The position numbers and the translations under genes are program-made. The notes under the pieces were generated by a model, which worked only from the letters and a program-made list of their open reading frames with translations, made no database searches and was not told the DNA's origin. Below are positions 3,631 to 54,618 of a DNA stretch of 64,000 nt, in pieces; positions within the stretch are counted from its first letter, which is position 1; each line of letters opens with the position of its first letter. This stretch comes from Opitutia bacterium (GTDB lineage Bacteria > Verrucomicrobiota > Verrucomicrobiia > Opitutales > Opitutaceae), in assembly GCA_016187925.1 (NCBI GenBank), contig JACPIS010000048.1, forward strand, positions 1-64,000, in the 5' to 3' direction.

Positions 3631-4644
3631 CTAATCGGCTGTGCGGATGACGATTTTGCCGAAGTGTGCTCCTGTCAGGAGGTGCCGGAAGGCGGCCGGC
3701 GCCTCGCCGAAGGCGAACTCCCGGTCGATCACCGGATGCAACCGGTGTTGCTCCATCGCGCGGAGCAGCTCGCGGAACATCGCCCTCGAGCCGACGCGCA
3801 ACGAGTGCACGGTGGCGCCGCTGCGAATGAACTCCACCGCGTCGAGCTGCAACGCCGTGCCGCTCAGGAAGCCGACGAATGCGATGCGCCCGTTGGCGCG
3901 CACCGCGCGCAGCGCCTCGCCGAAGGTCGCCGGTCCGCCGACCTCGAGCACGAAGTCCGCCCCGCGGCCGCCGGTCAGCTCCCGCACGCGCCGACCCCAG
4001 TCGGGTGTGGCGCGATAGTTGATGGTCTCGTCCGCCCCGAGTTCGCGGGCGCGGGCCAGTTTTTCGTCGCTGCTGGAAGTGATGAGCGTGCGCAACCCGG
4101 CGGCATGCGCGAGCTGGAGCCCGAAAAGCGATACGCCACCCGTGCCTTCGAGCACGACGGTCGCGCCGGGCCGCAGGTCGCCGGTCGTGAACAGCGCGTT
4201 CCACGCCGTCAGCGCGGCGATGGGCAGGGTTGCGCCCTCGGCGAAGGAGAGATGCGCCGGCAGCGGCACCAGTCCGTGTTCGGGTAGCACGGAGAACTCC
4301 GTGAGCACGCCCGGCAGCGGCGCGCCGAGCGAGAGGCGGGTGTTTTCCGGCGTGGGCGGACCTTCCTGCCACGATTGGATGTAGTGGCCGATGACGCGGT
4401 CGCCCGGCCGCCACGCAGTCACGCTGTCGCCCACGGACACGACTTCACCGGCGGCATCGGAGAGCGGCGTGAACGGCAGCGGCAAGTTGGGCAGGTAAGT
4501 GCCCTGCACGATGACGAGATCGCGGTAGTTGAGCGACTGCGCCCGCCAGCGGACGAGCACCTCGCCCGAGCCGGGTTGCGGGATAGGACGATCGATGAGC
4601 TTTAACGCATCGATTCCGAAACGATCAATCTGCCAGGTTTTCAT
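3631..4644 (-). CDS. NAD(P)-dependent zinc-type alcohol dehydrogenase / quinone oxidoreductase family
   Basis: MDR fold: MKTWQIDRFGIDALKLIDRPIPQPGSGEVLVRW..., VLEGTGGVSLFGLQLAHAAG. Confidence 0.88.
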   Translation of the reverse strand: MKTWQIDRFGIDALKLIDRPIPQPGSGEVLVRWRAQSLNYRDLVIVQGTYLPNLPLPFTPLSDAAGEVVSVGDSVTAWRPGDRVIGHYIQSWQEGPPTPENTRLSLGAPLPGVLTEFSVLPEHGLVPLPAHLSFAEGATLPIAALTAWNALFTTGDLRPGATVVLEGTGGVSLFGLQLAHAAGLRTLITSSSDEKLARARELGADETINYRATPDWGRRVRELTGGRGADFVLEVGGPATFGEALRAVRANGRIAFVGFLSGTALQLDAVEFIRSGATVHSLRVGSRAMFRELLRAMEQHRLHPVIDREFAFGEAPAAFRHLLTGAHFGKIVIRTAD

Positions 4645-4696
4645 AGGAGAAAAGGGGGAATAAACACGCTTGGCCGACGCACCGGCCGGGGTGCTT

Positions 4697-4890
4697 ATAC
4701 CAATCGCCCGTAGCATTTGGACTTTGGCGCGGCAGCAGCCGGTAGGGACGGACCGCCGGGCCGTCCGTTCTGCTGGCCAGCAGAATCCTCACGGCGCGCC
4801 CAGCGGCGACGAGTGCTTGAGCCTCGGCGGTCGCGCCCTACCTCGTCGGACTTGGCCCAATAGTCTATTTCCTACGGGCGTTTGGTATTA
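4697..4890. repeat. MITE-like palindromic element with 16-bp terminal inverted repeats (TACCAATCGCCCGTAG / CTACGGGCGTTTGGTA)
   Basis: TIRs read directly; ~190-nt body shared with 28317-28528. Confidence 0.75.
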
Positions 4891-44243: not shown

Positions 44244-44314
44244 GCCGCGACTGTGCGGCGCCGCGGACGGGCTTGGCAAACCGGTTCGCCGATTATGCCG
44301 CGTGGCGAGGTCTG

Positions 44315-44500
44315 GGCGGATTGCCGCTGAGGTTGGCAAGGCGGGTTGGCCGCAAAGAGGCGCAAAAGGGCGCAAAAAAATGCCGATGGAGAGAGGTGAG
44401 TCGGTGCAGGAAGCGGGCGCATGAGGAGTTTGGTCTTGGCTCCTTTGGAGGAGGCGATTTGGCTTTTTGCCCGGGCCGACGCACGCCGCCGTTTGCGGCG
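44315..44500. repeat. ~185-bp direct repeat, copy 1
   Basis: CTGAGGTTGGCAAGGCGGGTTGGCCGCAAAGAGGCGCAAAAGGGCGCAAAAAAATGCCGATGGAGAGAGG...GCCGCCGTTTGCGGC shared with 45097-45287. Confidence 0.9.
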
Positions 44501-45096: not shown

Positions 45097-45287
45097 GGGC
45101 GCGGACTGCCGCCTGAGGTTGGCAAGGCGGGTTGGCCGCAAAGAGGCGCAAAAGGGCGCAAAAAAATGCCGATGGAGAGAGGGGAGTCGGCGCAGGTAGC
45201 GGGCGCATGAGGAGATTTGGTCTTGGCTCCCTTGGAAGAGGCGATTTGGCTTTTTGCCCGGGCCAACGCACGCCGCCGTTTGCGGCA
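45097..45287. repeat. ~185-bp direct repeat, copy 2
   Basis: See copy 1. Confidence 0.9.
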
Positions 45288-45303
45288 GAAAAACGTTTCG
45301 CCC

Positions 45304-45900
45304 ATGCCCCAATCAACTTCCGATCTGCTGTCCGCTCGCATCCACGCCATCCGCGGCCAGCGCGTCATCCTCGATAGTGATCTGGCCCGGCTCTATGGCG
45401 TGCCGACCTTCCGCTTCAACGAGGCGGTGAAGCGCAACGCGGAGAAATTCCCGGAGGACTTCCGGTTCCAACTCACGCCCGAGGAGTTCGCCAATTTGAA
45501 ATCGCAATCTGCGATATCGAGTGTGGACACCGCTGGCCTGGAAGGGGTTAAGGGCATCTCATCGCAATCTGCGATGAGATCCAAGCGTGGGGCTGGCTAC
45601 AGGCCTTGGGCCTTCAACGAGCATGGCTGCCTGATGGCGGCCACCGTGCTGAACAGTCCGCGGGCGGTGCAGATGAGCCTCTACGTTATCCGGGCCTTTG
45701 TGCAGATGCGGGAGGCGTTGGCTTCCAACCAAGCGGTGCTGCGCAGATTGGCGGAGATCGACAAGACGCTGCTCGAGCACGACGCCGCGCTCCGGGCTTT
45801 GTGGGACAAACTCCGTCCGCTGCTCACTCCGCCGCCGGAACCGCTCGCCAAGGAGATGGGGTTTCATGTCGGTATCGGAAAACAGAAACGTGGCCGATGA
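45304..45900 (+). CDS. ORF6N domain-containing protein
   Basis: LDSDLARLYGVPTFRFNEAVKRNAEKFPEDFRFQLTPEEFANLKSQ. Confidence 0.9.
   Translation: MPQSTSDLLSARIHAIRGQRVILDSDLARLYGVPTFRFNEAVKRNAEKFPEDFRFQLTPEEFANLKSQSAISSVDTAGLEGVKGISSQSAMRSKRGAGYRPWAFNEHGCLMAATVLNSPRAVQMSLYVIRAFVQMREALASNQAVLRRLAEIDKTLLEHDAALRALWDKLRPLLTPPPEPLAKEMGFHVGIGKQKRGR
45556..45580. repeat. in-CDS perfect hairpin ATCTCATCGCA-atc-TGCGATGAGAT
   Basis: 11-bp perfect arms, 3-nt loop; smaller copy ATCGCA-atc-TGCGAT at 45501-45515. Confidence 0.8.
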
Positions 45901-46052: not shown

Positions 46053-46820
46053 TCAGGATCGCTGCCAGACGCCGCGCTGCGGCTGCTGCAGGAGACCGCG
46101 GTCGCGCAGGACTTGGAGCTGCTGCCTGATTTTGTCTCGGATGTGGCGATTGCCGGGATAGAGTTTGGCCAGTTCGGCTTCGAAAGCGTAGATGTCGTCG
46201 TTGGTGAACACGGAATTGGGTAGCGACTCCACGCATCGGAGAACATCGAGAGTCCAACCGCGCTGTTCGGGCTTCAAGACCTGGAGACGAGCGATGCGCG
46301 CATACTGTTCGCGGATATCGCGCCGATCTGCCACCACACCTTCCGTGATAAGCGGAATCTTGGCGGACGCGGGGACCAGGCCGACGTTGAGTATGTAGCC
46401 GGTCCATGCACTGCGGCGCGCCACAGCCGAGAGCGGCTTACGTCTGATGATGACAGCGGGAGAGATGGCGAAGCGCGGAATGAGAAGAAGATTCCGTACC
46501 ATCCATTCTGGAAGTTGGTAGTGCAGGAGGAAAAAGTTCGGGGTCCTGTTGCCCAGAACGGCGTCCAGCATCTTCTGGTAATTCGACCCGAGAATCCCAG
46601 CACTCAACTTCTTGCTGTGACTCTTGAGTTGGTAGCGCTCGACGCACTCCGGACAAACAAGATCGCTGACTTGGGTGTTGTTTCTCTCGGCGTGGAGTCG
46701 GTCACTGGTACAGGCGCAGCAGTAGAGATTATCCGCTCCCCATGGTTCGGTGATGCGACGCGCCAATTGGGACGGACTTTTGTAGCCTTCGCCAAAACGC
46801 GTCGGTAACTGCAGATTCAT
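46053..46820 (-). CDS. DpnI-like / Dam-replacing family restriction endonuclease
   Basis: Zn-binding CCAC...CPEC, GNRTPNFFLLHYQLPEWMVRNLLLIPRFAISPAVIIRRKPLSAVARRSAWTGYILNV, C-terminal winged helix DKIRQQLQVLRDRGLL. Confidence 0.9.
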   Translation of the reverse strand: MNLQLPTRFGEGYKSPSQLARRITEPWGADNLYCCACTSDRLHAERNNTQVSDLVCPECVERYQLKSHSKKLSAGILGSNYQKMLDAVLGNRTPNFFLLHYQLPEWMVRNLLLIPRFAISPAVIIRRKPLSAVARRSAWTGYILNVGLVPASAKIPLITEGVVADRRDIREQYARIARLQVLKPEQRGWTLDVLRCVESLPNSVFTNDDIYAFEAELAKLYPGNRHIRDKIRQQLQVLRDRGLLQQPQRGVWQRS

Positions 46821-46853
46821 CTGCGCCGACTAGATCAGCCCGGATTCGGCTCT

Positions 46854-48122
46854 TCAATGGGATTTAACTCGGAGAATCTCCGTTTCGCAGCGGACGATGT
46901 GGGTCGTCTGACGCTTCTTGCCGTCCGGGGCGTGGGCCCAGGCTTGCTGTAGGGAGACGTCCACCGTGGTGTGGACCACGCTCGCCTGGCTGACGTGGGC
47001 ACACGAGAGGAACACAAATTTGAATTCGTGGAAGATGCAGTCGGTTTTGGGCGCGACCTCGGTGGACATCGCCGGGATCGGATCGATCCGATCTGAAACC
47101 AGTTCAAGATCATTTTGAGTTTCGACGAAGACATGGATGCGGACCGTGAGATCGAAGGTCACGCTGTGGAGTCGGCGAAAAGTCAGGTCGAGATAAACGG
47201 AGTCACGTTCAATTCCGACGAAGGTCCGAGCCAGCAGCGCGCAGACGACGGCCGTCGTGCCGCTGCCCATGAAGGGGTCCATGACGAAGTCGCCGGGACT
47301 GGTGGACGAAAGGATGATGCGTTCGAGCAGGGCGACGGGTTTTTGCGTGGGGTGCTTGCCGAGGGTTTTCTCGACGGGCTTCGGCGCCGTCAAGGTCCAG
47401 ACGTCCTTCATCTGTTTGCCGGCGTTGGCGCGTTTCATGTCGGTGTAGTTGAAGCGGTGCCGGCTCTTTTCGTTCTTCGCGGCCCAGAGAATCGTCTCGG
47501 TGGAGTGTGTGAAGTAGCGGCAGGCGAGGTTGGGCGGCGGGTTGGGCTTCTGCCACGTGACTTGGTTGAGCAGCTTCATGCCGAGCTGCTGCATGGCGTA
47601 GCCGACGGAGAAAATGACGTGGTGCGTGCCGCTGACCCAGAGGGTGCCGTTGGGCTTGAGCAGGGCCTGGCAGCGGCGGAGCCACTCGTGGTTGAAGTTG
47701 TGATTCTCCTCGGGGCCGCGGGACTTGTCCCACTCGCCCTTGTCCACCTTCACCATCTTGCCGGCATGGCAGGTGATGCCGCCGTTGGAGAGAAAGTAGG
47801 GCGGGTCAGCGAAAATCAGGTCGAACACGCCGCCGGGGTGTTTCTGCAGCAGATGGTCCATAACCTCGAGGCAGTCGCCGTGGTAGAGGTAGAGCCCGCG
47901 GGCGTCGTCGCGGTAGGCGAGCTTCGACGGCTGCAAGACCTCGGGGCCCTCTTGGACGATGGCGTCGTCGGGACGGAACGTGGCGTCGTAGTCGGGGTAA
48001 ACGGTGCTGCTCGATGAGTTACGGCGCGACAAGGTAACGACAGAGGTTCGCTTGGTTTTCCTGGCAGGGCGGTTGGGGGCAACCGCCCCTACCTTCTTGG
48101 TCGAGGGCTTCTTTTTCGGCAC
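46854..48122 (-). CDS. DpnA-like site-specific DNA methyltransferase (beta-class, adenine)
   Basis: DLIFADPPYFLSNGGITC, VDKGEWDKS, NLACRYFTHSTETILWAAK, HPTQKPVALLERIILSSTSPGDFVMDPFMGSGTT; GTG start. Confidence 0.9.
   Translation of the reverse strand: MPKKKPSTKKVGAVAPNRPARKTKRTSVVTLSRRNSSSSTVYPDYDATFRPDDAIVQEGPEVLQPSKLAYRDDARGLYLYHGDCLEVMDHLLQKHPGGVFDLIFADPPYFLSNGGITCHAGKMVKVDKGEWDKSRGPEENHNFNHEWLRRCQALLKPNGTLWVSGTHHVIFSVGYAMQQLGMKLLNQVTWQKPNPPPNLACRYFTHSTETILWAAKNEKSRHRFNYTDMKRANAGKQMKDVWTLTAPKPVEKTLGKHPTQKPVALLERIILSSTSPGDFVMDPFMGSGTTAVVCALLARTFVGIERDSVYLDLTFRRLHSVTFDLTVRIHVFVETQNDLELVSDRIDPIPAMSTEVAPKTDCIFHEFKFVFLSCAHVSQASVVHTTVDVSLQQAWAHAPDGKKRQTTHIVRCETEILRVKSH
47076..47093. promoter_or_regulatory. 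18-bp palindrome GATCGGATCGATCCGATC with four GATC sites
   Basis: Direct reading. Confidence 0.6.
48063..48092. repeat. palindromic repeat GGTAGGGGCGGTTG-cc-CAACCGCCCTGCC at methyltransferase 5' end
   Basis: Near-perfect inverted repeat; in frame as VGAVAPNRPA. Confidence 0.7.
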
Positions 48123-48127
48123 GCGTT

Positions 48128-48157
48128 GATCGGATCGATCCGGGGGCGGAAAGGATC
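48128..48157. promoter_or_regulatory. GATC cluster (4 sites) immediately upstream of methyltransferase GTG start
   Basis: GATCGGATCGATCC at 48128-48141 plus GATC at 48154-48157. Confidence 0.5.
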
Positions 48158-48301
48158 AAGGCAAATTGGCCGGAGGGGAGGGCTGGAATCCAAAATCCAC
48201 GAGCAAAAGACTGCAAGGCGGAGTGCTTGGGTTGGCCGTGGGAGATATGGCCTTGCCGGGCCGGGCGGGTGCGGGTAACAAGGCGGGGCCATCACGCAGG
48301 C

Positions 48302-51262: not shown

Positions 51263-53710
<2,448 letters not shown>

Positions 53711-53851
53711 AGTCAGAACGTTGGGGTTGGGGTTACTGCGGCGGAAGTTGCCAAATGTCATAAGGCGGAGCCAGTCAATTCGGGGTCGGAGCCGGGGAAC
53801 CGTTGACCTGTTAGCGCGTTTAATCTTCGTTGCACCAAGCATAATCTGCGC

Positions 53852-54526
53852 ATGCCCCTGCTCGCCATCCACGACCTCGTGAAAGCCTACCGGACGCCCG
53901 GCGGCGGCGAGCATCGGGTGGTGGACGTGCGGGAATTCTCGCTCGAGGCGGGCGCGCAGGTCGCGCTGCGCGGCGAGAGCGGCTCGGGCAAGACGACGTT
54001 TCTCAACCTCATCGCCGGCATCCTCGCGCCCGATTCCGGCGCGATCCTCCTCGACGGGCTGGACCAGGCCCGCGTGAGCGAGGCGGCGCGCGACCGGCGC
54101 CGCGCGGAGAGCCTCGGCTACATTTTCCAGACCTTCAACCTGCTCCAAGGCCATACGGTGCTCGAGAACGTGGAGCTCGGCATGGCGTTCGGCCGCGGCG
54201 TCGACCGCGCCTACGCCGCGTCGCTGCTCCAGCGCGTCGGGCTCGGCGGGAAGCTCGGGCATTTCCCGCGGCAGCTCTCGACCGGCCAGCAGCAGCGCGT
54301 GGCCGTGGCCCGGGCGCTGGCCAACCACCCGAAGCTCGTGCTCGCCGACGAGCCCACCGGCAACCTCGACCACCGCAACGCCCGCGAGTCGCTCGCGCTC
54401 ATCCGCGAGGTCTGCCGCGAGTGCGGCGCGGCGCTGCTGCTCGTGAGCCACGACGAGGGGATTTTGTCCGGCTTCGAGTCCGTGCAGGACTTCACCCGCC
54501 TCAACCGGGCGCTCGCGGCGCCATGA
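53852..54526 (+). CDS. ABC transporter ATP-binding protein (LolD/MacB-type)
   Basis: GESGSGKTTFLNLIAG; LSTGQQQRVAVARAL; VLADEPTGNLD. Confidence 0.93.
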   Translation: MPLLAIHDLVKAYRTPGGGEHRVVDVREFSLEAGAQVALRGESGSGKTTFLNLIAGILAPDSGAILLDGLDQARVSEAARDRRRAESLGYIFQTFNLLQGHTVLENVELGMAFGRGVDRAYAASLLQRVGLGGKLGHFPRQLSTGQQQRVAVARALANHPKLVLADEPTGNLDHRNARESLALIREVCRECGAALLLVSHDEGILSGFESVQDFTRLNRALAAP

Positions 54527-54533
54527 AAACGCC

Positions 54534-54618
54534 CAACACCAAATCCCAAAGGCCAAGGCTGGCGTGCGCCAATGCAGCCGCGCCTGCAGGTTTGGAGTTT
54601 GGCCGTTTGGAATTTGGG
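54534..54618. repeat. imperfect long inverted repeat inside ABC operon
   Basis: CCAAATCCCAAAGGCCAAGG ... GTTTGGCCGTTTGGAATTTGG. Confidence 0.6.

Follow-up and report, generated by a model that had tools for sequence, protein, structure and literature searches.

How can one genome carry both an enzyme that makes a DNA mark and a nuclease that cuts wherever that mark is found? Mark-requiring nucleases and mark-making enzymes are held to be mutually exclusive, and a specialist would expect a GATC adenine methyltransferase (MTase) set beside a nuclease for methylated GATC (G6mATC) to be lethal. The 64,000-nucleotide stretch of DNA analysed here (the window) comes from a genome of 4.0 Mb, and the relatives of the locus in the named collection are Opitutaceae. 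The first-pass annotation had described two minus-strand open reading frames (ORFs), an MTase and then a nuclease, separated by 33 bp, and the ORF coordinates (48122..46854 and 46820..46053) bear this out. It overlooked a C-terminal MTase domain of ~71 aa, a set of GATC elements, and the replacement of the catalytic E64 of the nuclease by Q. The coding features are:

46854..48122, minus strand: DpnA-type (M2.DpnII-like) N6-adenine MTase ORF, fused to a small domain; 422 aa, GTG start
47157..47894, minus strand: catalytic core of the MTase, aa 77-322; DPPY precedes the glycine-rich motif, as in the beta class; PF01555 at aa 101-314
46857..47069, minus strand: small domain of ~71 aa, with a possible ATG start of its own at 47069
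46053..46820, minus strand: DpnI-family nuclease ORF, 255 aa; zinc-bearing PD-D..QxK catalytic domain and winged helix, with Q64 where DpnI has E64

The nuclease and its methyl-reading residues

The assignment of the nuclease to the DpnI type was upheld by matches to the Pfam families DpnI (PF06044, 4.4e-53) and DpnI_C (PF17726, 1.3e-26), to the PADLOC model mREase_II (1e-67) and, over its full length, to DpnI in the PDB (4esj/4kyw, 2.4e-51). The architecture is that of the family, a PD-(D/E)XK domain and a C-terminal winged helix, with the four cysteines of the zinc site (C34, C37, C56 and C59) all kept. The structure of DpnI has been used to assign side-chain roles in the recognition of both methyl groups and of the outer G:C pairs (PMC4117772), and the window nuclease retains all the residues of the methyl pocket and of G:C readout (Q18, N48, R126, L129, R135, W138, G140, K229 and R231). 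Thus it resembles the type IIM enzymes DpnI (Streptococcus pneumoniae) and Drg (Neisseria) in its two domains, zinc site and methyl-reading residues, and matches them over its full length at identities of 39% or lower, but unlike them it has Q64 in place of E64. This is the sole change in the catalytic triad; D53 and K66 are kept, and both are invariant among the homologs compared. The QxK form of the active site is the one found in the nucleases Mrr and MspJI (PMC12707154). Q64 marks a clade holding 48 of the 73 homologs scored by type, spread over archaea, Acidobacteria, Verrucomicrobia and Planctomycetes and mostly stand-alone. Viral homologs came to one fragment (IMG/VR). We also considered whether E64Q is a disarming mutation of paired copies, and rejected this because Q64 is found in lone and paired copies alike across a broad clade.

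The nuclease probably still needs G6mATC, since lone copies also occur where no GATC MTase can be recognised. Two genomes with an intact lone nuclease (G039 and G133) yielded no D12 MTase and no close DpnA-type MTase, and 8 of 27 further genomes have an intact lone copy with neither a D12 match nor a match to the window MTase. Many of these genomes are MAGs, so that absence from them is soft evidence. In G133 the opening codons of the MTase run directly into the closing codons of the small domain, with one GATC element and an intact nuclease still present, which we read as the clean removal of both MTase and small domain. An enzyme cutting unmethylated GATC would not be expected to persist after such a loss. 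DpnI-family enzymes are expected in hosts without a GATC MTase; here, a predicted DpnA-type MTase lies 33 bp upstream. GATC is mildly avoided in the window (observed/expected 0.82) and more strongly around E-type nucleases (0.25-0.55); considered as a possible trace of restriction, this avoidance did not decide the matter. As a separate observation on tetranucleotides, GTAC is strongly under-represented in the window and in the Opitutaceae loci L021-L028 and L068 (observed/expected 0 to 0.39), with CATG near expectation.

The MTase, its target and its small domain

By its sequence the MTase is of the DpnA type. It matches the Pfam family N6_N4_Mtase (3.9e-60) and, as its best PADLOC family, PDLC03371, has the beta-class order of motifs and is closest to the DpnA of DpnII-type operons. 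Its best PDB match is CcrM (2.6e-57), ahead of H. pylori DpnA (1.7e-34). Among plasmid records, however, it shares 57% identity with the second MTase of a DpnII-type operon on the Lactococcus plasmid pSRQ700, as against about 43% for alphaproteobacterial CcrM-like matches, and for this reason the DpnA label given at first pass is the right one. On pSRQ700 the DpnA-type MTase comes after a DNA adenine methylase and is itself followed by a type II endonuclease, an operon that we take to be the GATC-specific LlaDCHI system.

The likely target is GATC, and four indirect lines agree on this: the kinship with pSRQ700, the partner of an orthologue in another genome, the occupant of the MTase slot at a related locus, and a control region built of GATC. 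The orthologue (G037) is 84% identical in the core and is paired with a protein of the Sau3AI/MutH family (PF02976 6e-10, NF040973 1e-15, MutH in the PDB 3e-5); it is nested among DpnI-paired MTases in the tree, with moderate support, so the same MTase lineage also serves beside a Sau3AI/MutH-like enzyme. At L116 a Dam-family (D12) MTase fills the MTase slot behind a similar GATC cluster. In G079 the lineage stands beside a DUF6997-type apparent type II endonuclease in a genome without a D12 match, and the window genome likewise has no D12 MTase. Two further genomes (G093 and G095) keep only MTase remnants of ~110 aa.

The first-pass annotation had called for a survey of DpnI-DpnA adjacency in related genomes, and this survey found that the pair recurs in Opitutaceae and in other phyla. 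The nuclease is present in 9 of 200 sampled genomes of the host family, in 6 of which, the window included, the MTase is directly upstream. Seven Opitutaceae-type loci share the gene order and have intact MTases, as do L106 and L119 (Verrucomicrobiota), L140 (Sumerlaeota), and L115 and L153 (Acidobacteriota); paired loci outside Opitutaceae include Verrucomicrobia subdivision 3. Because of this recurrence in relatives and in other phyla, the pairing is evidently not due to chance. The MTase core (pN/pS 0.295), the small domain (0.234) and the nuclease (about 0.31) are all under purifying selection, compared with 0.72 for the linker. An inactive MTase, one of the ways out of the conflict offered at first pass, is argued against by this selection and by the conservation of the MTase. 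With the methyl pocket intact and the MTase very likely directed at GATC, the conflict that the first-pass annotation expected finds support and looks genuine.

Next to E64 (DpnI/Drg-type) homologs, MTases are mostly broken: they are truncated in L138, L150, L152 and N. gonorrhoeae, and an exception is L171, with an apparently intact MTase. In N. meningitidis drg is inserted in dam (PMC4269198), and in the examples of a survey of PD-(D/E)XK-winged-helix enzymes, directly adjacent 6mA/4mC MTases were inactivated by frameshifts (PMC11037411). The MTase has also been lost repeatedly within Opitutaceae.

Other MTases were noticed near DpnI genes. A PF01555 MTase of another kind, bearing an HPPY-type motif, is transcribed divergently from a Q-type DpnI homolog at a distance of 86-208 bp in Nitrospirae and archaea (L123, L124, L129, L137 and L145, at about 4050-4850 on the minus strand), a possible second MTase-DpnI association. 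In Bacteroidota (L138, L146 and L167) one common short sequence precedes the DpnI genes and is joined to truncated MTase ORFs, which belong to two different families, as though MTase genes served as insertion sites for a DpnI cassette.

The small domain is present in the intact MTases that adjoin nucleases in Opitutaceae, L119 and L140, and is absent from Opitutaceae MTase orthologs in nuclease-free genomes. Since its fusion to the MTase occurs only with the nuclease present, the small domain probably helps to keep the activities of MTase and nuclease apart. L153 has a separate short ORF of weak resemblance in the same position; the domain persists without the MTase in G049, and only its last ~30 residues remain in G039. 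It had no match in Pfam, and Foldseek returned no fold relative below E 0.7 for models of which the best (AF2) reached pLDDT 84 and the other four were poor. Two identities were considered and set aside: homology to DpnD found no support (hhalign probability 0.6%, no Pfam match), and a role as essential antitoxin of the nuclease is argued against by G133, which keeps its nuclease after losing MTase and small domain. Separately, a small zinc-ribbon-like ORF occupies the small-domain position just upstream of the nuclease in L110, L116 and L156.

Two observations concern the surroundings. Near the operon, window positions 44273-44500 and 45132-45370 are two similar stretches whose translations have long segments in common, and the ORF adjoining these stretches (45217-45900, plus strand) looks ORF6N-type. 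In several Opitutaceae (loci L069, L075, L025 and L028), as in the window (51263-54556, minus strand), a gene for a membrane pyrophosphatase is found close to the MTase or nuclease module.

GATC elements before the starts

GATC stands before each of the three starts:

48128..48159, minus strand: GATC-cluster element upstream of the MTase, TTGATC-N11-CGGATCGATCCGATC, with 5 bp between it and the GTG start
47076..47093, minus strand: second copy of the element, an 18-bp palindrome GATCGGATCGATCCGATC in the linker, 6 bp before the small-domain ATG
46829..46837, minus strand: extended -10-like sequence TGATCTAGT containing GATC, the G of which is at -16 from the nuclease ATG; conserved in position

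The 14-mer GGATCGATCCGATC occurs at this locus only in the 4-Mb genome. A 60-bp stretch with four or more GATC sites is common by chance, so density alone was dropped as evidence and the element was judged on conservation and position instead. In relatives it is found at the same places, including before MTase orthologs that have no DpnI homolog, and all 7 genomes compared use the same five codons for RIDPI in the linker (codon usage p=0.008 per draw, for sequences that are not independent). In other phyla, different GATC clusters occupy both positions, before the MTase and before the small domain. The GATC clusters upstream of the MTase show no convincing -10 sequence.

Before the nuclease, GATC is part of the extended -10-like sequence TGATCTAAT at a fixed distance from the start, the window version being TGATCTAGT. 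A promoter here would give a leaderless mRNA. GATC falls within the -10-like stretch at 17 of 48 Q-type loci, against 5.7% expected (binomial 5e-10), and at 2 of 25 E-type loci. Within the group of the window it does so at 12 of 12 paired and 7 of 12 lone loci (p=0.04, from a small, post hoc comparison uncorrected for relatedness), and most Q-type nucleases outside this group have no GATC in the promoter stretch. Provided that GATC is the target of the MTase, the locus thus has sites for its own methylation before each start, the arrangement of a restriction-modification (R-M) system regulated by promoter methylation.

Proposed mutual exclusion and its rivals

Among the ways out that had been offered at first pass, controlled expression is favoured, in the form of GATC-bearing promoters. 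With an intact MTase, an apparently intact methyl-dependent nuclease and such promoters, mutual exclusion is the simplest model that fits. We propose, at a probability of about 0.4, that the locus is a single evolved unit of a GATC MTase, a small partner domain and a G6mATC nuclease, in which methylation-switched promoters would avoid joint activity. The MTase would methylate double-stranded GATC. A methylated GATC in the -10 region would alter transcription of the nuclease gene, and methylated clusters in front of the MTase and of the small domain would do the same for those two. There is precedent for such effects: at the IS10 transposase promoter, N6-methyladenine overlapping the -10 site is repressive, and several promoters controlled by MamA respond to it too, with an effect opposite to that in IS10 (PMC3701705), and the R-M operons CfrBI, LlaDII and AhdI are controlled by methylation of their own promoters (PMC12707154). 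In a methylated cell the nuclease gene would be off, and the cell's own MTase tolerated; in an unmethylated cell the nuclease would be made and GATC-methylated invaders restricted, as in a pneumococcal DpnI strain. The small domain may add separation at the level of the proteins. More tentatively still, promoter methylation could keep the cell in either of two heritable states that exclude each other, GATC-methylated or DpnI-like, within one genome. These would correspond to the DpnI/DpnII alternative of pneumococci, recast as an epigenetic switch, a parallel that we offer with the same reserve.

The main rival, which we consider unlikely, is that chromosomal GATC is never fully methylated: the MTase would act mainly on single-stranded DNA or at special times and leave hemimethylated sites at most, so that the nuclease could be made constitutively as a defence against Dam-methylated invaders, with DNA uptake or another role left to the MTase. 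Pneumococcal DpnA does methylate single-stranded DNA and is induced in competence (PMC3573125), hemimethylated GATC is a poor substrate for DpnI (PMC12707154), and the window genome has no D12 MTase to complete the methylation. Beside the apparent type II endonucleases of G037 and G079, however, the same MTase lineage would have to protect double-stranded DNA; moreover, a Dam-family MTase fills the slot in L116, and the GATC promoter elements would be left unexplained. Next, and a little less likely, comes an ordinary type II R-M system, also raised at first pass, in which the QxK nuclease is re-tuned to unmethylated GATC and the MTase protects the host. Intact MTases do cluster with Q-type rather than E-type nucleases, MTase-then-endonuclease is the usual order, and MTase orthologs adjoin other type II endonucleases. 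Yet the residues of the m6A pocket are all retained, and the proposal is also disfavoured by repeated loss of the MTase with the nuclease left intact, as in the clean deletion in G133, and by the lone nucleases of G039, G133 and the 8 of 27 further genomes.

We regard two other explanations as improbable, and about equally so. The pair might be transitional debris, a DpnI gene beside a GATC MTase with dead expression, decaying as in Neisseria and Bacteroidota; the insertion of drg in the dam of N. meningitidis (PMC4269198), the truncated MTases beside E64-type homologs and the repeated MTase losses in Opitutaceae would all suit this, but MTase and small domain are intact at many loci and under purifying selection, and GATC elements are conserved across phyla. 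Alternatively, the QxK protein might have lost efficient nuclease activity and act as a reader of methylated GATC, binding to the GATC clusters and so regulating the MTase. The exchange of the catalytic E64 for Q with both methyl-reading domains retained, and the position of the clusters before the MTase, are in keeping with a reader, whereas D53 and K66 are invariant, Mrr and MspJI cut DNA with a QxK active site (PMC12707154), and the MTase element is also found in genomes without a DpnI homolog.

By sequence the nuclease is a member of the DpnI family and the MTase of the DpnA subfamily; taken together, they match neither the DpnI cassette nor the DpnII operon. The locus differs from the DpnI and Drg loci in the intact GATC-type MTase directly upstream of the nuclease and in the GATC within a -10-like sequence, and no DpnD homolog was found in the window. 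With the DpnII/LlaDCHI operons (Dam-type MTase, DpnA-type MTase, DpnII endonuclease) it shares the DpnA-type MTase, but it has no adjoining Dam-type MTase or DpnII, a DpnI homolog holds the endonuclease slot, and the MTase carries an extra C-terminal domain. The nuclease resembles the surveyed PD-(D/E)XK-winged-helix endonucleases (PMC11037411), which are usually stand-alone, in its winged helix and its predicted dependence on m6A; unlike the frameshifted neighbours in that survey, MTases of the window type are intact and conserved. CfrBI, LlaDII and AhdI also carry the recognition sites of their own MTases in the promoter region, as predicted here, but they cut unmethylated DNA, whereas the window nuclease is predicted to need a methylated site. 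If mutual exclusion through promoter methylation holds, the locus would work like a promoter-methylation-regulated R-M system with its logic inverted.

The analysis brings to notice a large uncharacterised QxK clade of DpnI homologs, and a small domain tied to the coexistence of MTase and nuclease. A conserved, intact pair with GATC-bearing promoters offers a natural test of how a cell lives with both enzymes, and the switch, if true, would be a concrete and easily assayed epigenetic choice between two opposite restriction phenotypes.
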